A stretch of DNA of 41,038 nucleotides from Candidatus Hatepunaea meridiana (GTDB lineage: Bacteria; Electryoneota; AABM5-125-24; Hatepunaeales; Hatepunaeaceae). Below the pieces are notes generated by a model. That model was not told where the DNA came from, did not search any database, and was given only the letters and a program-made list of their open reading frames with translations. Below, piece by piece: positions 16,633-41,038 of this stretch. Location of the stretch: the NCBI GenBank assembly GCA_030765125.1, contig JAVCDD010000120.1:1-41038 (forward strand), written 5' to 3'. A program made the position numbers and the translations under genes. The stretch's first letter is position 1. Every line of letters begins with the position of its first letter.

Positions 16633-16700
16633 AATGATCCACAAGTTGAAACTTGAATTCTAAATGCTTTTACTTTCGCCAGTAACATGAAAGGGCGTGA

Positions 16701-16729
16701 TAAATCAGCCCCTATACGGGGTTGATTTA
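16701..16729 (+). promoter_or_regulatory. 12-bp hairpin just upstream of hutU
   Basis: TAAATCAGCCCC (16701-16712) pairs with GGGGTTGATTTA (16718-16729) with one G-U, leaving a five-base loop. The hutU ribosome site (AAGGAG, 16737-16742) begins seven bases later. The position suits an mRNA-stabilising or translation-controlling leader hairpin. I see no match to a known riboswitch. Confidence 0.5.
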
Positions 16730-16747
16730 CTAAAAGAAGGAGATGAT

Positions 16748-18427
16748 ATGGATATTCGCAACTGGAAAATTCCTCACGGTAATAAGATTCAATGTCGCGG
16801 TTGGATCCAGGAAGCAGCGCTTCGGATGCTGCTGCATAACCTCGATCCTGAGGTTGCTGAGAATCGTGATGAACTGATCGTATATGGAGGCACCGGACGT
16901 GCAGCACGCAGTTGGGAAGCAGCGGGTGCTATAGCCGAAAGCCTTATAAACCTTGCCGATGATGAGACGCTCCTTGTGCAATCTGGTAAACCGGTTGGAA
17001 TTATTCCCACTCATACTGATGCGCCACGAGTAATAATAGCTAACTCAAATCTCGTTCCTAACTGGGCGAATTGGGATTATTTCAGAGAATTGGAACGTCA
17101 GGGATTGATTATGTTCGGGCAGATGACCGCCGGTTCCTGGATATATATTGGTACACAAGGCATCCTTCAAGGTACATATGAGACTCTTGCCGAGTTAGCA
17201 CGCCAGAATTTCAATAGCAGTCTGAGAGGAACTCTCACTGTCACAGCCGGATTAGGAGGAATGGGTGGCGCACAGCCTCTTTCGATTACTATGAATGAAG
17301 GAGTTGCACTGATTGCTGAAGTTGATCCTGAGCGTATTGAACGGCGTATTAAAACCAAATATCTGGATCACTGGACTGAGAATCTCAACGAAGCGATTGA
17401 TTGGGCGCTCGATGCGAAAGATAAAAAACAGCCTCTATCTGTAGGTGTACTTGCTAATGCTGTTGATTTATTAGACGAGTTGATCGAGCGTAATATTACA
17501 CCGGAAGTTCTCACTGATCAAACCTCTGCGCACGATGAACTAAATGGCTATGTTCCAGTGGGACTGAGCTATGCTGAAGCTTTAGATTTACGATTAAAGG
17601 ATCCTGATGAGTACAAAAAGCGTTCATATCAGACGATGGTCAGGCACGTCGAAGATATGGTTACGCTTCTTGATCGTGGCGCAATAACCTTTGACTATGG
17701 TAATAACCTGCGCGCTCAAGCTGAGAAGGGTGGAGCAAAGCGAGCCTTTGATTTTCCCGGTTTTGTACCTGCTTACATCAGACCGTTGTTCTGCAAAGGT
17801 AAGGGACCTTTCAGATGGGTTGCGCTTTCCGGTGATCCTGAAGATATTTACAAAACCGATCAGAAGGTACTGGAGCTATTCCCAGATGATGAGCCGCTTA
17901 ATCGCTGGATCCGATTAGCACGCGAGAAGGTTACTTTTCAAGGGCTTCCTTCGCGTATTTGCTGGCTTGGTTTGGGTGAGCGACATAAGTTAGGGCTTGC
18001 TTTTAATGATATGGTTGCATCTGGTGAATTGTCCGCCCCGATTGTCATTGGACGCGATCATCTCGATTGCGGATCCGTCGCTTCGCCGTATCGTGAAACC
18101 GAAGCGATGAAGGACGGCAGCGATGCCATTGCTGATTGGCCTATCCTTAATGTCATCTCAAATGCAGTTAGTGGAGCAAGCTGGGTGTCGTACCATCACG
18201 GTGGGGGTGTAGGCATTGGATATTCGTTGCATGCAGGGATGGTTATCGTATGCGATGGCACACCGGAAGCGGCTGTAAGACTGAAACGAGTGCTTTGGAA
18301 TGATCCGGCAACCGGAGTAATCCGTCATGCGGATGCCGGATACGAGGAAGCGATTGAGACTGCACAGGAATTGGGCGTTAAGATACCGATGTTGCCAGAC
18401 CATTCACAAAGGGGGGTCGAAAAATAG
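16748..18427 (+). CDS. hutU: Urocanate hydratase
   Basis: Converts urocanate to imidazolone-propionate in histidine degradation, using tightly bound NAD+. I chose ATG 16748 because AAGGAG lies five bases before it and the usual family start follows; this gives 559 residues, normal for HutU. Blocks seen: [36 protein letters not shown] (NAD-binding region), [20 protein letters not shown] and [20 protein letters not shown]. No hutH, hutI or hutG is in the window, so the rest of the pathway must be elsewhere. The stop codon lies inside the first copy of a palindromic repeat. Confidence 0.96.
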
Positions 18428-32586: not shown

Positions 32587-34974
32587 TTACTTGCCACTTT
32601 TCCACGGCAAATTCCACTCAAATTCAACATGCTCACACTGCGTACAATCCATACATTTTATACAATTCTCCGAATTGATTTCTTTTCTGAAATCGAGATC
32701 CATTGGACATAGTTCCTTGCAACGACCACAGTCAACGCACGAATCCTTGACTTTAAGTGAAACAAGCGAAACTCGATTAAACATCGCATAAGTTGCCCCC
32801 AACGGGCAGATTGTGCGGCAGAATGGGCGTTTGATGAACAGGAAAAGCAATAGACAGACGGCTAATATCCATATCTTGATCCAGTACATCGTTCCTATGT
32901 CAAGCGGCGCTATGTACGGACTGCCGAAATCCGGGTCTATCGGGTTCCAGATTCCCCAGGGAATAGCGCCGATCAGCGCGCCACATGGGCAAAGCTTGCT
33001 GAACCAATGCTCATACGTGAAGTAAGGAATTATTATCACCAAGCCCACAAGCACAACATATTTGAAGTAATTAAACAATTTGGGGATATTAACCGGAATC
33101 CGTTTGAAGGCATTCGTTGCATCCTGAACTAAGCCGAAGGGACAGAGCCAGCCGCAGGTGAACCTCCCAGACAGCAGACCTATAATCCCGAGGAAACCGA
33201 TCAGAAACCAGGGAAAACGATGCGTGGCAGCGAAATGCTGCATCATGCCGATTGGACAGCCCATTAATGCCGTTGGGCAGGCATGGCAGTTCAAGCCAGG
33301 TACGCATATATTTCTGAGAGGTCCATCATATATCCTGGCAGTGCTCGCAACCGCAAAATAGCTGTTAAAGAGTATCGTACCAATACCCAACTGAGTGAAA
33401 CGGCGCAGCCAGAGCAACGGCGTAGCTTTCTTCTTGACGAAACTGGAACCACAACTGATGCAGCGGTTGGCTTCTGCGATGACTTCCTCGTCAGGCAGCG
33501 TGGATTTGATCTCTTCCCAAAGCGCTTTTTGCCTTTCCTTGACCGAGAGTTTGTGTCCTTCATGACGCGGGAGGGCAGCTATATGATTGAAATCAATATT
33601 ATCAGCCGTAACAATGGGTTGTTCAGCTTTCACGGGCAACTCAGAGCCGGACAAGCGTGCATGAATAGCTTCAGCGGCGCGGGTTCCTTGTGCAATGGCG
33701 TCGGTAACCAGACCTAATGTTGTTACATCACCTCCGGCAAAGACTTTCTCGCGGTTAGTTGATCCGTTTTCATCAGTCTTGATCCAGCCTCGTTGATCTA
33801 CTAACTCATCGGGACCAACCCAATCAGGAATCTGAGATATAGCAACGATAATGCTATCGGTTTCAATTGTAAACTCCTGTCCATCGATCGGAACAGGTCT
33901 TCGCCTTCCGGAATCATCCGGCACGCCCAATTCCATCCGCTGAACGATCATTGCAACCGCATTGCTGTTTTCGGTTATGATTTCCTTGGGTGCAACGAGG
34001 TATTGGATATCAATACCTTCCGCGATAGCTTCTTCAATCTCCTCGTTAATAGCCGGCATCTCTTTACGAGTGCGGCGGTAAAGGATGGTAACCTTCGATC
34101 CAAGACGATATGCGACGCGTGCAGCATCAATAGCGGTGTCGCCTCCACCGATTACGATGACGTTTTCCCAAGTGAAATCTGGGGACAGTATACCTATTTT
34201 ATGAGAAGTCTGAAGTTTTCCAGGGATATCGGATAAAATAGGTATACTGTCCCCAAATTTCCGGGTTAGATTCCCATCTACGACTCTCCGAAGAAATTCC
34301 ACCCCGCTGTAAACATTTGAAGCATCTTCACCCGGGCAGTAAAGCTTAGCTCCCTGATGAGCGCCAACACCGACAAATACTTCATCGTACCGAATATACA
34401 GGTCCTCGAAAGCAATATCCTTACCAACCATAATGTTTGTATGTAATTCAACGCCGAGATCAAGTATTTTCTGTACTTCAGCGTCAATTACCTTGCGAGG
34501 CAGACGGTAAGCGGGAATGCCATAGCGCAGCATCCCGCCGGTTTCAGAGAGAGCTTCAAAGATGGTAACTTTGTAACCATGTTGCACCAGGTGATAAGCA
34601 CATCCAAGTCCCGCCGGACCGGAACCGATTACGGCTATCTTTTCATCTCGTTCCTGCTCGGTGATCTTTGTATAAGCAAGATTATGTTCTATCGCCCAAT
34701 CACCGAGGAATCTTTCTATATCATTTATACCGACGCTGCAATCCTTTTCGCAACGATTACAGGCGGTCTCGCAGGGGTGAGGACAGACTCTGCCACAGAC
34801 AGCAGGGAGTGGGTTTGTCCTGGTAAGGATACGCCAGGCTTCCTCGAACGCTTCCTCTTTGGGTCGCTCCTTATGGTCAGCCTGGGATATAGCGGTAAGT
34901 ACAGCACGTATATCAGTACCCTGTGGGCAGGTAGCTATGCAAGGTGCGAGGGCTTTTGATTTATCTTTTATCAA
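32587..34974 (-). CDS. GltD-like flavoprotein fused to NapH-like membrane ferredoxin
   Basis: A 795-residue electron-transfer fusion. Residues 1-90 carry Cys clusters (PCIATCPQG; CGRVCPHPCETACNRC) of the GltD/DPYD Fe-S domain. FAD site IAVIGSGPAGLGCAYHL lies near 113-129, GGMLRYGIPAYRLPR near 146-160, the NAD(P) site VIVIGGGDTAIDAAR near 272-286 and VFAGGDVTTLGLVTDAIAQG near 411-430. From 520 on there are about four to five membrane helices with NapH-type Cys motifs (CHACPTALMGCPIG, CGWLCPFG, LCPCGAL, CRTICPLGA) and two Fe-S motifs, CVDCGRCKELCP and CIKCMDCTQC. It probably moves electrons between NAD(P)H and a membrane or envelope partner. Residues 240-265 come from a palindromic repeat. Confidence 0.92.
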   Translation of the reverse strand: MIKDKSKALAPCIATCPQGTDIRAVLTAISQADHKERPKEEAFEEAWRILTRTNPLPAVCGRVCPHPCETACNRCEKDCSVGINDIERFLGDWAIEHNLAYTKITEQERDEKIAVIGSGPAGLGCAYHLVQHGYKVTIFEALSETGGMLRYGIPAYRLPRKVIDAEVQKILDLGVELHTNIMVGKDIAFEDLYIRYDEVFVGVGAHQGAKLYCPGEDASNVYSGVEFLRRVVDGNLTRKFGDSIPILSDIPGKLQTSHKIGILSPDFTWENVIVIGGGDTAIDAARVAYRLGSKVTILYRRTRKEMPAINEEIEEAIAEGIDIQYLVAPKEIITENSNAVAMIVQRMELGVPDDSGRRRPVPIDGQEFTIETDSIIVAISQIPDWVGPDELVDQRGWIKTDENGSTNREKVFAGGDVTTLGLVTDAIAQGTRAAEAIHARLSGSELPVKAEQPIVTADNIDFNHIAALPRHEGHKLSVKERQKALWEEIKSTLPDEEVIAEANRCISCGSSFVKKKATPLLWLRRFTQLGIGTILFNSYFAVASTARIYDGPLRNICVPGLNCHACPTALMGCPIGMMQHFAATHRFPWFLIGFLGIIGLLSGRFTCGWLCPFGLVQDATNAFKRIPVNIPKLFNYFKYVVLVGLVIIIPYFTYEHWFSKLCPCGALIGAIPWGIWNPIDPDFGSPYIAPLDIGTMYWIKIWILAVCLLLFLFIKRPFCRTICPLGATYAMFNRVSLVSLKVKDSCVDCGRCKELCPMDLDFRKEINSENCIKCMDCTQCEHVEFEWNLPWKSGK
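34180..34255. repeat. Palindromic REP-like element inside the GltD/NapH gene
   Basis: Perfect 23-base arms, 34180-34202 and 34233-34255 (TGGGGACAGTATACCTATTT and complement), flank a 30-base centre. The element is read in frame by the minus-strand gene and encodes about 26 residues between the flavin and nucleotide-binding motifs. The GGGGACAGTATAC arm resembles REP sequences linked to REP-associated Y1 transposases; none is in the window. Confidence 0.92.
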
Positions 34975-35487: not shown

Positions 35488-35614
35488 CACTAAAGTAGGT
35501 TGCCAGTCATGAAGCCAGAGGCTTTTTGTGTTTAAAAGTATTATGGCATACTGATGGCATAAAAACTCAAATAGTACGTTTCGTTTAACACAACCAATTT
35601 AATTGGAGTCTTTA

Positions 35615-37258
35615 ATGTTCTACTTTGTTCTATCACTTTTGCTTGTGCTTGCTCCTGCAGTCTTTGGACAGCAGAAATCAGAGCGCAGTTCTATTTCTTA
35701 TGTCAATGCCATTTGGCTTGCTGCACCGGAAGCCAAGGAAATCACACCCAGTGAAACCAACATCCTTCTATCGCAAATCAAAAACTACATCGAGATGGAA
35801 AGATTCGATTTTAATCCTTTACCTGATAAACTTCTCACGGAATTCACCGCTGCTGCGAATGAAAAAGAGAAGCTTAGTGTAAAGGAAATCGCTGAGTTAA
35901 TGAGCGAAAAGTTTACTCCGACAATCCTCGAAATACTCGAGGGGGCAATGGTAACTCGTGCAGGAGAGTTGGTCAGCCCGGCAAAGAAGCAATCCTTTTT
36001 GGCGACCAAAGCCAAAGAGTTGGGGATTACTCTTGAAGAGATTGAGAAAGTGATGAACTCTGCATACATTTATATGCCTATCCTTACCGAGTACGAACAT
36101 AAGGTTAGTAAAAAGGGGGTCCACTCTTACTCGCTAAAAGGAGGTATAATCTGGTTTCACGTTGATATGTCCAGCGGGGTTCCGGTGATAAAGAAGAAGG
36201 TTGCCAAGAAAACTTCAGCATCGGACAGCGATAAGGATAAGAATGAAGCTATGGATGCAACTGCCGAAGCATTTGCCCATAACCTGCAAATTGCAACTCG
36301 TGCAATAGACGAGTTCAAACTTACCGCTCCCATTGCTGAAGTGGATAACGGAGATATTCGCTTCCCACTTGGGAAAAAAGAAGGCATCTATATGGATGAC
36401 CCATATTGGGTCGGAGAATGGATGCTGAATGAAGATGGTGTTGAAGTGTTTGAAAAGTCCGGATGGGTAAGGGTTGGTGAGGTTGTTGACAATAAGACCA
36501 ATCCAATTGAGACTTCATCTGGTTGGGCTGTCAAGAAGAGTCAATGGAGTCGTGGGATGATGGTGCTCGAGCATCCTCGTTACAACGTTGACATTGCCAT
36601 TAAACCGAAAATGTTTCAAATGAAGATCAGCGAGGGGCTTATACCTGTTCCAGCCGGATTTACTCAAGTAAAAGAGGAATTCGACGGTTTTGCAACTGGT
36701 CTCGATTTTGATTTGCAGGTTTATCTTGCAAGTCTGATCGGGGTACGGCAAACATTCTTCATAATGGGTGGTAACTTTGCCTTCCCCGCGATAGAATTTG
36801 AGGGTGTTGGCGGTCTCACCGGTTGGACTAACACACCGCCATTCTGTTGGGGTTTTAATGGTGGAATTATGAAAAAGATGTATATGGGGCAGATGGCGTT
36901 TTCGGTTGAAGCTAAGGCAGGAATGCAATTCTTCTCCGTAGTCCAGAAATACGAACCAACTGATTATTCGATAACCATCAGTAACAGCACTATTGGTGGA
37001 CAGGTCAATGCCGGTCTGGATTACGCTTTTACACCTGACATAAACGTTGGTTTTTCAGCAGGATATCGCATTTATCCTACTTCAGATATCTGGACATATA
37101 CAGATTCAAACGATAACTCAGGTGATTTAACGAGTTCGGTTTTCCCGTTTCCTGAGGTCGACCATAGCGGATTAGCAGTTGGGCTCTATATTCACTATAC
37201 ACCTATGTCGATGCCATGGGATCCGGTACGCCAAGTGCGTAAGTTGCTCAATAAATAA
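35615..37258 (+). CDS. Exported protein with probable C-terminal outer-membrane barrel
   Basis: 547 residues from ATG 35615, which follows TTGGAG by six bases; the signal peptide MFYFVLSLLLVLAPAVFGQ is cleaved probably after FGQ. Residues 20-200 are helical and charged, with a Lys/Ser-rich linker near 190-215. From about 300 the pattern alternates aromatic and Gly residues (AGMQFFSVVQKYEPTDYSIT; NAGLDYAFTPDINVGFSAGY), as in eight- to twelve-strand barrels. The end, DPVRQVRKLLNK, is unusual for a barrel. Family not recognised. Convergent with the selenoprotein operon and bracketed by family C repeats. Confidence 0.75.
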   Translation: MFYFVLSLLLVLAPAVFGQQKSERSSISYVNAIWLAAPEAKEITPSETNILLSQIKNYIEMERFDFNPLPDKLLTEFTAAANEKEKLSVKEIAELMSEKFTPTILEILEGAMVTRAGELVSPAKKQSFLATKAKELGITLEEIEKVMNSAYIYMPILTEYEHKVSKKGVHSYSLKGGIIWFHVDMSSGVPVIKKKVAKKTSASDSDKDKNEAMDATAEAFAHNLQIATRAIDEFKLTAPIAEVDNGDIRFPLGKKEGIYMDDPYWVGEWMLNEDGVEVFEKSGWVRVGEVVDNKTNPIETSSGWAVKKSQWSRGMMVLEHPRYNVDIAIKPKMFQMKISEGLIPVPAGFTQVKEEFDGFATGLDFDLQVYLASLIGVRQTFFIMGGNFAFPAIEFEGVGGLTGWTNTPPFCWGFNGGIMKKMYMGQMAFSVEAKAGMQFFSVVQKYEPTDYSITISNSTIGGQVNAGLDYAFTPDINVGFSAGYRIYPTSDIWTYTDSNDNSGDLTSSVFPFPEVDHSGLAVGLYIHYTPMSMPWDPVRQVRKLLNK

Positions 37259-37268
37259 AGTATTGTCT

Positions 37269-37358
37269 AAGTGCGAAAGTGTAAAAGTATGAAAGTGTGA
37301 AAGTATGAAAGTAGAAGTTTTTCTTTCGCACTTTCGTACTTTCACACTTTCGAACTTG
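37269..37358. repeat. Palindromic repeat family C, copy 2
   Basis: AAGTGCGAAAGTGTAAAAGT and following bases pair imperfectly with CTTTCGCACTTTCGTACTTT and following bases, ending at 37358. It lies between two convergent transcription units (stop at 37258 plus strand, stop at 37373 minus strand) and could act as a bidirectional terminator. Confidence 0.75.
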
Positions 37359-37368
37359 ATTATATCTT

Positions 37369-37384
37369 GAGATCATCCGATCCC
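37369..37384 (-). promoter_or_regulatory. Candidate bacterial SECIS hairpin for U40 of the CD1871A-like protein
   Basis: On the minus strand, GGGATC (37384-37379) pairs with GATCTC (37374-37369) in six pairs including one G-U, with loop GGAT. The loop begins 19 bases after the UGA at 37399-37397 (18 bases between). Spacing, stem and the G residues at the loop start fit the bacterial SECIS consensus. The true stop codon lies partly inside the hairpin. Confidence 0.7.
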
Positions 37385-37516
37385 GATGCACTCCAGTCAA
37401 AGACCGGATGCTTCGATCCTCATTTCCTGAGGATCACCCAAGAATATTCCATAAACCAGGGAAGCTATTATTATAGCTGCCATAATTAGGAATGTAAGAA
37501 GTTTTTGTTTGTTCAT
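37373..37516 (-). CDS. Selenocysteine form of CD1871A-like small membrane protein (U40-L-E-C)
   Basis: ATG 37516 opens a 47-residue product if UGA at 37399-37397 is read as selenocysteine and the next UGA (37375-37373) as stop. It begins MNKQKLLTFLIMAAIIIASL, one membrane helix, then GDPQEMRIEASGL-U-LECIGIG. As I recall the CD1871A family of CXXC-containing small proteins, they have the same size, an N-terminal helix and an ICLECIGIG end; here the first Cys is UGA. The C-terminal UxxC would face a redox partner at the membrane. It lies 42 bases after the TlpA-like gene, last in the operon. Ending at the first UGA would remove the whole conserved motif. Confidence 0.75.
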
Positions 37517-37558
37517 AATCTTTTAATATTTGACAGGATAACAGGATATTCATGATCC

Positions 37559-38092
37559 TTACTCTTCGGCAGACTTATCCGTAGCCATCTCCTCATGAAG
37601 CTCGCTTAGTAACTTATCAATCTCCACTTTAAGTTCCGGCGTCTTCAGGAATAGAACGTCTTTATAGATAGTCTTGTCCGGTCTGATCAGGATAAGCCTG
37701 GGCAGCTTCAGCACTTTGAAATTCTTGTTGAGCTTCTGACCTTTGCCATAGTAGATAGGATAGGTCATTTTATACTTTTTTCTGAATTTCTTTATCTCGG
37801 CGTCAACCTGTCCTTTAGGGTTTTTAGTATTGATAGAGACCAGGCTGACCGGCTTGCCTTCATATTCCGGAAGCAGTTTTTGCAGGTGCGGAATCTCCGC
37901 ACGACACTGAGGTCAATTACATTTCCAGAGGTGGATAATAGTAACCTTGCCAAGCAGGTCGTGCAGTGCGAACTCTTTGCCGTCCTGAGACTTCAGCGTC
38001 GGATTGGGGAGAGTATCCCCTTCCTGCAAATCCGCCTGAAGCGATGCCGTGCAAAGAAGTAAAACGATTAGTAGAATTTTTAAGTATTGCAT
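37559..38092 (-). CDS. Exported TlpA-like thioredoxin selenoprotein (U60-P-Q-C)
   Basis: Without recoding this is a 5-prime piece stopping at UGA 37915-37913 and a downstream piece in the same frame. Read through, it is a 177-residue protein from ATG 38092: signal peptide MQYLKILLIVLLLCTASLQA, then EGDTLPNPTLKSQDGKEF and KVTIIHLWKCN-U-PQCRAEIPHL. The pattern W-x3-U-P-x-C-R-x-E-x-P aligns with WxxxCPPCRxExP of TlpA/ResA proteins, so Sec replaces the nucleophilic Cys. The cis-Pro region is KLPRLILIRPDK near 134-145. Likely a periplasmic disulfide reductase or peroxidase-like enzyme. An earlier in-frame ATG (38140) would put 16 polar residues before the signal peptide. Confidence 0.9.
37886..37902 (-). 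promoter_or_regulatory. Candidate bacterial SECIS hairpin for U60 of the TlpA-like protein
   Basis: GTGCGG (37902-37897, minus) pairs perfectly with CCGCAC (37891-37886) around loop AGATT. There are 16 bases between the UGA and the loop, the lower edge of the 16-37 range described for bacterial SECIS, and G is the second loop base. The loop encodes part of the conserved Glu-Ile-Pro. Confidence 0.75.
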
Positions 38093-38128
38093 TGTTGTGT
38101 TTGTTTGATTTGTTTTTACCACAAAGGT

Positions 38129-38177
38129 ACAAAGACACAAATTAGTTTAAAAACTCCGTACTTTTGTGTCTTTGTGT
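38129..38177. repeat. Inverted repeat between the two thioredoxin selenoprotein genes
   Basis: TACAAAGACACAAA (about 38129-38142) is complementary to TTTTGTGTCTTTGT (about 38163-38176). It occupies most of the 90-base gap and could be a 3-prime stabiliser for the upstream mRNA or another REP-like repeat. Confidence 0.6.
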
Positions 38178-38182
38178 TTAAC

Positions 38183-39520
38183 CTATTCTTCCCCTACCAA
38201 TTCCTCAACAATCCCCAATAGCATTTCAATCTTCTCCCGACCGTCCAGATCCCCGCTACGGCGTGCTCTGCGGTAACGGATGATGCCCTGCTTGTCGATC
38301 AGAATATACATCGGTGGCAACAGGTGATGGGCTCGTCCGAGATGGTAACGGTCGAAGGCGTCTTCTGCATTCTCCATTATCGGGATATTTATGCTGTGTT
38401 CAGTGCGAAAATTCTCCAACCAACCGTCTTCAATCCTGCTGTCGGCGTTTAGAGTCCATACCTCAACTACGGTGTCAGGGAATGCATCATATATCAATTC
38501 TTGCGCGGAAGGAATCTCCTCCCCGATGCAGATTTCTCACGTGTACTCGAAGAAGTAAAGATAAACGACCTCCCCCCAATGATCGGAGAGGCTGTGGCTG
38601 TTGCCGTCTATGTCTATGCAGTCTATGTCCGGTGCGTGAAAGCCTGAGTCAGGAGCTACAACCTGCATTTCAAAATCAACCCGCGTGGTCTCGGCAAGCG
38701 TCACTTCAATGTTGCACTGCCAGCCTTCATAGTCAATTTCGTCCACGGTTGTCCAAACGACTAACTTGTGCAATCCTTCGTCAACGTTTGGAAGGATCCG
38801 TGGGCTCACGTCGACACCGAGATCGTTACCGTCCAGTTTAAGCCCGAATTCTGTGAGCGGTTGACCGTCATATCCCGCATTAATGACCAGAATCCCTCCG
38901 GCAAACATACTGTAATTGACATCCGTGATCTGGTTAAATAATACATCGACATCTCGTTCAGGTCCTAAATAGTTTTTCCCATCATATAAACCATAAGTTG
39001 AGATTTGATGTACACCTTCCGGAATGTAGGTCAAGGTGTCGGGATTTAGTCGGACACCCAGCGAATCCCCATCCAAAATGATTCCAATTGTTTCAGGTGT
39101 TACTGAGTTGTCAGATGTGATTTCGATCTCGCTCAAAACTACAATCGTGCCGGTCTTCAACTCGACGTTTACTTCCGATACCTCGTTAAACCTAACAGTG
39201 GTATATACTACCGAACCGTGAATTGTTTTTGATTCAAGTGAGAAATAAACCAGTATTGGATAAAAACCGGTAAGAACATCGTTTATTGTAAACGGATTAC
39301 TATTGTAACCCAAATCTTCACCCGCAAGGATGATACCGATACTGTCCGGTGTTATCGTTTCATCAGGTGCAGCTTGGATAGAACCGCTTATGATAATCAA
39401 ACCAGCGTTCTCCACTGGAATTGGCAACTCAGAAGGTGCATCACCACAACCTGTTAACGCCACAACAAGCAACGCAAAGGCATTTATACTAATCCGGCAA
39501 TATTTGTTCTTAAGCATCAT
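38183..39520 (-). CDS. Lipoprotein with three repeats and a selenocysteine thioredoxin domain (U328-E-I-C)
   Basis: 445 residues if UGA 38539-38537 is read as selenocysteine. Signal peptide with lipobox VALTGC (Cys25). Residues 40-290 hold three similar modules of about 80 residues, each opening with GIILAGEDLG, GIILDGDSLG or GLKLDGNDLG and including a turn-rich EGxH motif; they resemble PEGA-type beta modules. From about 290 a thioredoxin/AhpC-like domain follows: APDIDCIDIDGNSHSLSDHW, GEVVYLYFFEYT-U-EICIGEEIPS, and LLPPMYILIDKQGIIRYRRA with the cis-Pro. Sec takes the place of the first catalytic Cys. The start overlaps the barrel gene stop (ATGA at 39520-39517). Probably anchored in the envelope and acting on an exposed disulfide or peroxide. 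Confidence 0.9.
38507..38523 (-). promoter_or_regulatory. Candidate bacterial SECIS hairpin for U328 of the lipoprotein-thioredoxin
   Basis: GGGAGG (38523-38518, minus) pairs with CCTTCC (38512-38507), six pairs with one G-U, around loop AGATT. Nineteen bases separate the UGA from the loop. Stem length and loop sequence are the same as in the hairpin at 37886-37902, though the stems differ completely in sequence. Confidence 0.72.
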
Positions 39521-40545
39521 AATTCATACTCGAAGCCTAACAGGTAAGTATTCATACGAATATCCTGGTTGCCCATATACTTACGGAGTTTAAAATGCAA
39601 TTTCATAGCCGCCCCGATCTGCCATTCGACGTAAGCACGAATGCTGTGTGACTTTATTGAATCTCCTTCGATAAAGTCCGGTATAGCATCATCTTCATAC
39701 TTATTCTGATAATAACGGTAAGTAAGCCGTCCAGTCAGATTCCAACGGATATATTGAGCTACTTCTATTGCCGGAGCAAATGACGTGATACCAATGTCGC
39801 TGAAGTAAAAACGAGAGAAAAGATGAACTGCTGTTTGAGTCGGAAAATAACGACTAACGAAAACCGTAAAGGCATCTGCGTTGAAAATACCCGAATCATT
39901 CTCGGCATAATAACCGTCCCAGCGCGCATTGAGAGCGGTTACCGAATTGACCGACCAGCGAATCTGCGCCATCGGCATAACAGTCTCCGTAAGGAAACCA
40001 TCAGGAGCCCGATTATGGTCATAACTTAAGCTCAATTCATATTTTATCCAACCGGAACGATCATGTTTCATTCCTGCTGACAACATATAACCGCCTGAAG
40101 CTGCCGAATCCGGTGAATTGTAGGCGATGTTCAAGTATTGATAAGCGCCATAGACGTTCGTCATATCGGTAACGTCCCTGTCTAAGCGACTGTAATATCG
40201 ACTCTGGTTTTTATCGCTGGTCAGATCTGAGGTTTCATATCGCAGTTCAAGGTTGGTAATAGGTCCTATCGACTGGATTACCTTTGCCAGTGACCGGTGT
40301 TCCGGGAAATTTGCGATATAAGGATCAACGTATTCATATCTTATCGAATCGCTGCGCTCGATGATTGGGTACTTATACTGGTTGTAATCGCTGTACTGAT
40401 ATTCAAATTTCACTCTAGTAGCGAACATACCGCTTGATCCGATGGCAGACAACCGGTTTGGCGTCATGCAGAACAGCAGGCATAGCATACATATTAAAGA
40501 TGCGCTTCGTCCGAAGCGTAAGTTGGGCGCTATCACGTAGGGCAT
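39517..40545 (-). CDS. Outer-membrane beta-barrel protein, possibly DUF3570-like
   Basis: 342 residues, starting at ATG 40545 inside the end of the DUF4266-like gene (AGGGGGAGG directly upstream). The N terminus has a hydrophobic segment (SASLICMLCLLFCMT) ending near LSAIG. The rest is rich in alternating aromatic/polar strands (VKFEYQYSDYNQYKY, GYMLSAGMKHDRSGWIKYEL, WNLTGRLTYRYYQNKYEDD) and ends in LLGFEYEL. DUF3570 barrels are commonly next to DUF4266 lipoproteins and thioredoxin-like genes, so I suggest that family from context; sequence evidence alone supports only a barrel. Confidence 0.75.
   Translation of the reverse strand: MPYVIAPNLRFGRSASLICMLCLLFCMTPNRLSAIGSSGMFATRVKFEYQYSDYNQYKYPIIERSDSIRYEYVDPYIANFPEHRSLAKVIQSIGPITNLELRYETSDLTSDKNQSRYYSRLDRDVTDMTNVYGAYQYLNIAYNSPDSAASGGYMLSAGMKHDRSGWIKYELSLSYDHNRAPDGFLTETVMPMAQIRWSVNSVTALNARWDGYYAENDSGIFNADAFTVFVSRYFPTQTAVHLFSRFYFSDIGITSFAPAIEVAQYIRWNLTGRLTYRYYQNKYEDDAIPDFIEGDSIKSHSIRAYVEWQIGAAMKLHFKLRKYMGNQDIRMNTYLLGFEYEL
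40503..40518 (-). promoter_or_regulatory. Hairpin downstream of the DUF4266-like UGA (possible SECIS)
   Basis: CGCTTC (40518-40513, minus) pairs with GAAGCG (40508-40503) around GGAC. Twenty bases lie between the UGA at 40535-40533 and the loop, and the loop starts with GG. Structure fits the SECIS pattern, but the downstream codon is UAG, so only one residue would be added. It may be coincidental or control translation of the barrel gene. Confidence 0.35.
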
Positions 40546-40730
40546 CCTCCCCCTGCGGACCCGCCTCCACCTTCCTCGACCTTAACCAGATCGCTGTCCT
40601 GCTGGTCGTCACAGGTCATAATCGGATCGTTCACCGGATCGTCAAGCATATACTTATTAGCAGTACACCCAGCCAGTAAAACCACCGTTAGAATCACAGC
40701 GATCAATGGGATAATTTTCTGAAATCTCAA
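40533..40730 (-). CDS. DUF4266-like small lipoprotein, ending C-P-T (UGA)
   Basis: 65 residues from TTG 40730. Signal peptide MRFQKIIPLIAVILTVVLLA with lipobox LLAGC (Cys22). The mature part is short: YMLDDPVNDPIM, then an acidic stretch and VEEGGGGSAGGGCPT. A DPxM-like motif and a Gly-rich, Cys-containing end fit DUF4266 as I recall it (family ends are often GGGGCGC-like). First gene of the operon; overlaps the barrel gene by 13 bases. If its UGA were read as Sec, the end would be C-P-T-U, immediately stopped by UAG. Weak AGAAG ribosome site. Confidence 0.75.
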   Translation of the reverse strand: MRFQKIIPLIAVILTVVLLAGCTANKYMLDDPVNDPIMTCDDQQDSDLVKVEEGGGGSAGGGCPT

Positions 40731-40884: not shown

Positions 40885-40908
40885 CACGACACCACGACAC
40901 CACGACAC
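40885..40908. repeat. 8-bp tandem repeat CACGACAC x3
   Basis: Three exact copies of CACGACAC at 40885-40892, 40893-40900 and 40901-40908. It ends on the stop codon of the clipped gene at the right edge. Period matches the 8-bp array at 24811-24854, though unit sequence differs. Confidence 0.75.
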
Positions 40909-41038
40909 TACTTCACCAACGCAACCTTCACTTGTGAAACACATCCAAATGCCTCAAAACGAATCAAATAAATCCCACTTGCCAGGTGCAAACCATCTAA
41001 TAATGTCGTGTGCATACCAGCCTGATGATGACCGTTGA
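40908..41038 (-). CDS. C terminus of a type IX secretion cargo protein (partial)
   Basis: Only the last 42 residues are in the window; the gene runs off the right edge, reading toward 40908 (TAG). The residues include MHTTLLDGLHLASGIYLIRF followed by EAFGCVSQVKVALVK. The L-x2-G-x1-Y-x-I-x-F core and final K-x2-LVK are the pattern of the type A Por secretion (T9SS) sorting domain, which directs cargo across the outer membrane. It is strong evidence for an FCB-group host. What the missing N-terminal part does cannot be seen. Confidence 0.85.
   Translation of the reverse strand, partial: NGHHQAGMHTTLLDGLHLASGIYLIRFEAFGCVSQVKVALVK

Follow-up and report, generated by a model that had tools for sequence, protein, structure and literature searches.

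What is encoded by a run of bacterial genes that are each interrupted by a UGA at the place of an expected redox-active cysteine (Cys), and what might such genes do together? The question is raised by a 41,038-nucleotide (nt) stretch of Candidatus Hatepunaea meridiana (assembly GCA_030765125.1, contig JAVCDD010000120.1; hereinafter the window, meaning the whole of this stretch), which carries a minus-strand operon of five genes for a small lipoprotein, an outer-membrane β-barrel, a lipoprotein with a TlpA domain (TlpA-lipoprotein), a periplasmic TlpA/ResA-like protein and a small inner-membrane protein (Table 1). A preliminary description of the sequence had proposed three, possibly four, selenocysteine (Sec) proteins here, linked in an electron relay across the cell envelope. 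Our analysis predicts that all of these genes, the barrel excepted, are selenoprotein genes. We further consider it probable that the four selenoproteins and the 16-strand barrel constitute, with a nearby NfnL–NapH fusion protein, an outward selenol/thiol electron relay; for brevity the locus is referred to as the relay operon.

The coordinates bear out an in-frame UGA as the first residue of a CxxC-type motif in the TlpA-lipoprotein (UEIC), the TlpA/ResA-like protein (UPQC) and the small protein (ULEC). The suspected fourth selenoprotein also proved real: the small lipoprotein gene ends in GGGCPT-TGA-TAG, and in 15 of 15 loci CPT-TGA is followed immediately by a stop codon (UAG, UAA or UGA), a constant arrangement which fits a UGA read as sense with the next codon terminating. 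Across the loci read, UGA occupies the site in all 15 lipoproteins, all 16 TlpA-lipoproteins, all 12 TlpA proteins and all 12 small proteins, with each selenoprotein having one internal UGA, always where the redox-active Cys would sit. A phylum-wide search for the small protein was positive in 14 of 39 genomes, each match containing one TGA, and a scan of the contig collection with a lipoprotein profile recovered 14 loci, one of them new (L052), all from the same phylum and all with UGA.

The simplest alternative, that the UGAs are ordinary stops in decayed or split genes, has in its favor that gene callers using the standard code break each gene at the UGA. Against it, the same UGA recurs at the Cys position in 12–16 loci, and a search of the relatives for random stops, frameshifts and lost downstream parts found the UGAs in place, no frameshifts and the coding sequence behind them kept. 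For the codons 3′ of the UGA, comparison of the window with each relative gave proportions of nonsynonymous differences (pN) of 0.19–0.54 against synonymous ones (pS) of 0.62–0.87, by which measure the codons beyond the UGA are under purifying selection. With covarying hairpins behind the UGAs and Sec genes adjoining the operon in relatives (both below), this reading is already contradicted and we hold it to be scarcely credible. Equally negligible is a genome-wide reassignment of UGA to an ordinary amino acid: it would account for in-frame UGAs in several neighboring genes, but the barrel gene ends at a UGA with no conserved sequence beyond it, the selenoproteins have a single internal UGA at the redox Cys position, and tRNA-Sec(UCA) and SelB are present, so that it too is already contradicted. 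Within the small gene, two UGAs 24 nt apart (window 37369–37399) are apparently read differently; the terminating one sits within the gene's own Sec insertion sequence (SECIS)-like hairpin, 24 nt after the Sec UGA, and the sequence behind this stop is not conserved.

Behind each of the four UGAs in the window lies a hairpin whose small loop contains G. The stems are of 6–7 bp and start 10–14 nt after the UGA, while the apical loop starts 20–23 nt from its first base; the hairpins and their loops are thus as previously described, the stems not uniformly of 6 bp, and the distance of 16–19 bases given earlier close to, if different from, these values. Taken singly they are only moderately rare, being matched by 1–8% of 5,411 background TGAs from the same loci (Fisher combined p ~4e-4), which is too weak for any one of them to stand as proof; an Rfam scan of the region gave chance low-score matches only. 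The decisive evidence, as judged from the alignments, is conservation and covariation across 7–16 loci, with covariation seen at three sites, those of the TlpA-lipoprotein, the TlpA protein and a surface protein with a CPGU motif. In the TlpA-lipoprotein hairpin 88% of cells are paired and 18 show double changes; the covariation score is 0.431, whereas shuffles gave 0.116 and sliding the partner gave no more than 0.154. None of 500 shuffles scored as high; because the loci are related such counts are not probabilities, whereas the slid-partner controls preserve that relatedness. The TlpA hairpin is 98.8% paired and shows A-U/G-C exchange plus one compensatory C-G to A-U exchange; that of the small protein is 97% paired over 12 loci, with a compensatory A-T to C-G change in L034; and the CPGU hairpin is 97.6% paired, with three pairs showing double changes and every slid control far lower. 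The earlier judgment that three independent nonsense mutations would be improbable is therefore borne out by UGA conservation, downstream constraint and hairpin covariation.

The absence of a Sec machinery, which would have spoken against Sec coding, was also looked for. The host has selA, selB (338 bits), selD (325 bits, itself Sec-containing) and, adjoining selA, a tRNA-Sec (68.3 bits; called tRNA-SeC by ARAGORN). Within family f1, the operon-less genomes G005 and G007 are the only two that have neither a selA or selD match nor a SelB above cut-off. On these grounds we take Sec coding at the relay UGAs to be established, short of protein evidence.

The operon extends beyond the host. A protein search located the barrel in 14 of the 118 relatives, the host being one of them, all of one phylum. 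The five-gene order is kept wherever the contigs of relatives are long enough, recurring in 14 other genomes or loci of this phylum. In genome G008 (L041) a single strand encodes, in order, selB, selD, a type 9 secretion system (T9SS)-type protein, the CPGU protein, an FG-GAP-repeat selenoprotein with a GUC motif, the lipoprotein, the barrel, the TlpA-lipoprotein, the TlpA protein, the small protein, the NfnL–NapH fusion and selA; G001 (L042) has nearly the same order, and the G004 locus (L040) ends in selA and tRNA-Sec. The FG-GAP-repeat selenoprotein (motif U-C-x-G-A-x-P-Q-M, i.e., GUCxGAxPQM-type) has an in-frame UGA and a T9SS tail (L029, L039, L040, L041). Its gene immediately precedes that of the lipoprotein or, in the second copy of G001, that of the barrel, and a fifth copy occurs in G002 (L253). 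The second surface family, with the motif CPGUGGG, adjoins selD in seven f1 genomes, including the host. Representatives of both contain the T9SS type A sorting domain (TIGR04183) at 41–45 bits against a cut-off of 23. By this comparison of loci, the four predicted selenoproteins, the barrel and the fusion are shown to be a conserved gene set, which in relatives is contiguous with selB, selD, selA and the genes for the T9SS-tailed surface selenoproteins. At the contig end in the window, a truncated gene upstream of the lipoprotein resembles the FG-GAP selenoprotein of relatives, judging by its position and tail.

The NfnL–NapH fusion combines an N-terminal NAD(P)H:ferredoxin/GltD-like flavoprotein (Pfam Fer4_20 and Pyr_redox_2; PDB NfnI subunit, 1e-90) with a C-terminal NapH-like membrane polyferredoxin (Pfam Fer4_5). 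In relatives its gene lies directly next to the small gene, and in L048, L049 and L052 the polyferredoxin half alone takes its place. We posit that this fusion is the likely electron entry point of the relay.

The TlpA-lipoprotein (AhpC-TSA, 38.8 bits) and the TlpA/ResA-like protein (AhpC-TSA, 75.6 bits; ResA match, 8e-21) both clear the Pfam cut-off of 26 and have UxxC at the active site, where the ResA/TlpA families have CxxC. The three motif-bearing proteins do not represent three unrelated folds, as had been stated: these two share the TlpA/AhpC-TSA fold, and the third, a membrane protein of 47 residues, is related to the CD1871A family of CXXC small membrane proteins (NF040920). It resembles that family in length, in its one membrane helix, in its C/U-L-x-C-I-G-x-G C-terminus and in its NapH-like neighbor, but differs in having Sec at the first Cys and in scoring 20.5 bits, below the cut-off of 32. 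In all three cases tested, Cys-containing relatives recovered with the small-protein profile exceed the CD1871A cut-off, scoring 33–47 bits. The alternation of UGA and Cys that had been suggested as a check is seen for the small protein, which has UGA in this phylum and in genomes G019 and G145, whereas eleven genomes from other families encode it with Cys, most of them with an adjoining NapH-like protein, and Cys homologues next to NapH-like proteins occur in other phyla; the other relay sites are UGA throughout the loci read. A small selenoprotein with the C-terminus ULSCIGVG also occurs outside the relay in L077 and L225. In L077 (G019) it is accompanied by NapH, by multihaem cytochromes and by a TlpA-like protein devoid of CxxC (WATWSSRS).

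The lipoprotein and the barrel connect the operon to a known theme. Clusters of DsbD, thioredoxin-like, DUF4266, DUF3570 and ApbE proteins have been proposed to function in extracytosolic electron transfer (Meheust et al. 2021, PMC8238504). The description of the lipoprotein as DUF4266-like stands at the level of profiles, with an hhalign probability of 96.9 (E 1.7e-10, the signal peptide contributing part), but the curated Pfam model (PF14086) matches it in no relay genome. In that alignment the Sec falls on the second Cys of the DUF4266 CxC motif, and a Gly-rich redox C-terminus is common to both. The outer-membrane barrel is likewise supported as a predicted 16-strand structure (AlphaFold2 model from 14 sequences, predicted local distance difference test score 81.5), while its membership of DUF3570 (PF12094) stays below the curated cut-off at 20.8 bits versus 25, with a weak match in 4 of 14 relatives and a weak profile comparison. 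Foldseek returned porins and barrels in general, a porin-like match to a predicted model that says nothing on function. At its annotated N-terminus (MPYVIA...RFGRSA) the barrel overlaps the end of the lipoprotein and its hairpin. This segment is conserved only in f1 and is modeled with very low confidence; hence, the true start is probably downstream. The relay shares with the published clusters the joint encoding of a small lipoprotein with a redox-active C-terminus, an outer-membrane barrel and a TlpA-like protein. However, it differs from them (PMC8238504) in having Sec at four sites, CPTU for CxC, a small ULxC protein, a barrel under the DUF3570 cut-off and electron entry via NfnL–NapH; the [ST]GA[ST] flavinylation motif was not found in 13 of 14 barrels, the remaining one having an isolated SGAT. 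Neither ApbE nor DsbD was recognized on reading the open reading frames of L039–L052, where no dedicated search for them was made. The relay is most likely a relative of the DUF3570/DUF4266/thioredoxin system. A classical Cys-type DUF4266 protein (CGCN) with a TlpA-like protein and a DUF3570-type barrel occurs in the same phylum (L231, genome G015).

In the relay that we favor, electrons from NAD(P)H would enter the flavin and iron-sulphur centers of the fusion, pass to the membrane-anchored ULxC protein and from there to the periplasmic UxxC TlpA protein, which would reduce the UxxC TlpA-lipoprotein and, through it, the CPTU lipoprotein, which the barrel would hold. This lipoprotein would hand them to CPGU- or GUC-motif proteins at the surface and these to an external acceptor, with Sec being favored for its speed of exchange and resistance to over-oxidation. 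The envelope-spanning placement put forward earlier is supported by the inner-membrane entry module and the T9SS surface selenoproteins; the electron flow, the order and direction of transfer, the partners and the acceptor we infer from location and from the role proposed for the Cys-based relative (PMC8238504).

Several points weigh against this proposal. The evidence for Sec at the relay sites is genomic, and the proposed direction and partners derive from localization and homology. In the host, a plus-strand gene (35603–37258) splits the fusion from the small gene; it codes for 551 residues with a weak outer-membrane β-barrel match and is not at this place in the relatives examined. There are split or second copies at L046/L080 (genome G006) and L029, and no Cys-only form of the complete operon turned up in the lipoprotein-profile scan of the contigs with its 14 loci from one phylum, all with UGA. 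Lastly, related UxxC TlpA proteins could do disulphide repair. TlpA/ResA-like proteins commonly act in disulphide reduction and repair, and the main competing explanation, which we consider unlikely, builds on this family knowledge: the set, fed by NfnL–NapH, would reductively repair or isomerize disulphides or over-oxidized Cys/Sec in outer-membrane and T9SS-exported proteins, with the surface selenoproteins as clients rather than carriers. This would not account for the barrel, which is conserved, or for the lipoprotein with its terminal Sec, and four serial Sec steps are a better fit to a relay than to one reductase. Still less probable, in our estimate, is a surface peroxidase or a system detoxifying metalloids (mercury, arsenic or selenium oxyanions): peroxide and soft-metal chemistry do suit Sec, and SAO, an organometallic system, is among the selenoprotein operons already known (PMC13188914), but the cluster has no recognized peroxidase, MerB-like or transport component, and neither the TsoA/TsoB/TsoC NCBIfam models, at E up to 10, nor the SAO models match it.

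The relay is further distinguished by the Sec machinery that accompanies it. In the phylum, SelB forms two groups with branch support of 100/100, one of which (clade A) unites SelBs from each of the 14 relay genomes with a single one from G012; clade-A SelB is thus present in 14/14 relay genomes against 1/25 without the relay (Fisher p 1e-9, phylogeny uncorrected). The same clade appears in SelA (15 rows, support 100/99) and in tRNA-Sec (14 rows, support 100/100), although from G017, a genome 77% complete, only an ordinary-type tRNA-Sec was recovered. On the gene trees, the relay is thereby shown to travel with one clade each of SelA and SelB, and of tRNA-Sec where recovered. Six f6 genomes (G013, G018, G021, G024, G027 and G030) have both SelA/SelB sets and two tRNA-Sec, with a single SelD common to the sets; for G030 the second SelB is a partial match below cut-off. 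In G017 and G012, SelA and SelB each occur twice, in separate clades. G012, in which no relay was detected, has a relay-type Sec set and two selD genes, of which only one contains Sec. The loops of the SelD hairpins are mostly AGAT/AGTT/GGAT/GGTC/GGAC in relay and f1 genomes versus GGAG/GGTG in other families, pointing to a difference in SECIS class between the two Sec sets that is suggestive only, because the single SelD of f6 has a GGAG/GGTG-type loop yet adjoins the relay-type tRNA-Sec. We tentatively suggest, as a possibility that we regard as somewhat doubtful, that the relay has its own SelA, SelB and tRNA-Sec reading a SECIS class unread by the ordinary set, in which case f6 would have two Sec codes, one of them for a cytoplasm-to-surface selenium wire. 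Photobacterium profundum 3TCK, whose genome has two complete sel operons, is a precedent for two Sec-encoding sets (PMC5330540), but in f6 two deep clades coexist, one of them tied to the relay.

Table 1. Relay genes and associated features. Positions are those of the whole 41,038-nt window unless another locus is named; the five operon genes run from 40730 to 37373.
Feature	Position	Strand	Details
Small lipoprotein, DUF4266-like	40530..40730	-	66 aa; C-terminus GGGCPT-Sec-stop; UGA 40535-40533; TAG 40532-40530
SECIS-like hairpin of small lipoprotein	40503..40518	-	CGCTTC[GGAC]GAAGCG; inside start of barrel frame
Outer-membrane β-barrel	39517..40545	-	annotated length 342 aa; 16 predicted strands
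TlpA-lipoprotein (tandem repeats + C-terminal TlpA/AhpC-TSA domain)	38183..39520	-	445 aa; UEIC; UGA 38539-38537
SECIS-like hairpin of TlpA-lipoprotein	38507..38523	-	GGGAGGA[GAT]TCCTTCC
Periplasmic TlpA/ResA-like protein	37559..38092	-	177 aa; UPQC; UGA 37915-37913
SECIS-like hairpin of TlpA/ResA-like protein	37886..37902	-	GTGCGGA[GAT]TCCGCAC
Small inner-membrane protein	37373..37516	-	47 aa; C-terminus ULECIGIG-stop; UGA 37399-37397; stop UGA 37375-37373
SECIS-like hairpin of small membrane protein	37369..37384	-	GGGATC[GGAT]GATCTC
NfnL/GltD-like FAD/NAD(P) oxidoreductase fused to NapH-like membrane polyferredoxin	32587..34974	-	795 aa; probable electron entry
3′ end of gene upstream of lipoprotein	40908..41036	-	cut by contig end; tail resembles T9SS-tailed FG-GAP selenoprotein
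FG-GAP selenoprotein (relatives)	L039 8370-9932; L040 29-1576; L041 8691-9977; L253 about 5003; L029 2954 (- strand)		
Host YCPGUGGG protein	L251 3280, contig C374	-	T9SS-like tail; in-frame UGA; next to selD

A near-perfect, AT-rich inverted repeat with GAAAGTG-like units (37260–37365), possibly a bidirectional terminator, separates the small gene from the plus-strand gene convergent with it. The genes of window 1–29343 are ordinary by inspection, comprising a ribosomal protein operon that includes secY, adk, map and rpoA, a cluster for an oligopeptide ABC transporter and a urocanase-like gene (16697–18427).

Operons with several selenoprotein genes are themselves known, namely SAO and Tso, the TsoA protein having a LULAxC motif (PMC13188914). 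By the NCBIfam models and the citing description, the relay has partners other than theirs. The single parts of the relay belong to known superfamilies and the set is a variant on the known multi-selenoprotein and DUF3570/DUF4266 themes.

To our knowledge, no electron route from the inner membrane to the surface with selenoproteins at all successive steps has been described, nor have selenoproteins exported by the T9SS; neither turned up in the literature searched, where overlap with Tso is possible. The cluster adds several selenoprotein families without NCBIfam model names, and as a variant of the poorly understood DUF3570/DUF4266 systems the relay may give them a definite electron donor to examine. 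The presence in f6 of the relay-clade Sec machinery beside a second set would offer a natural test of the specificity of two Sec insertion systems in one cell.

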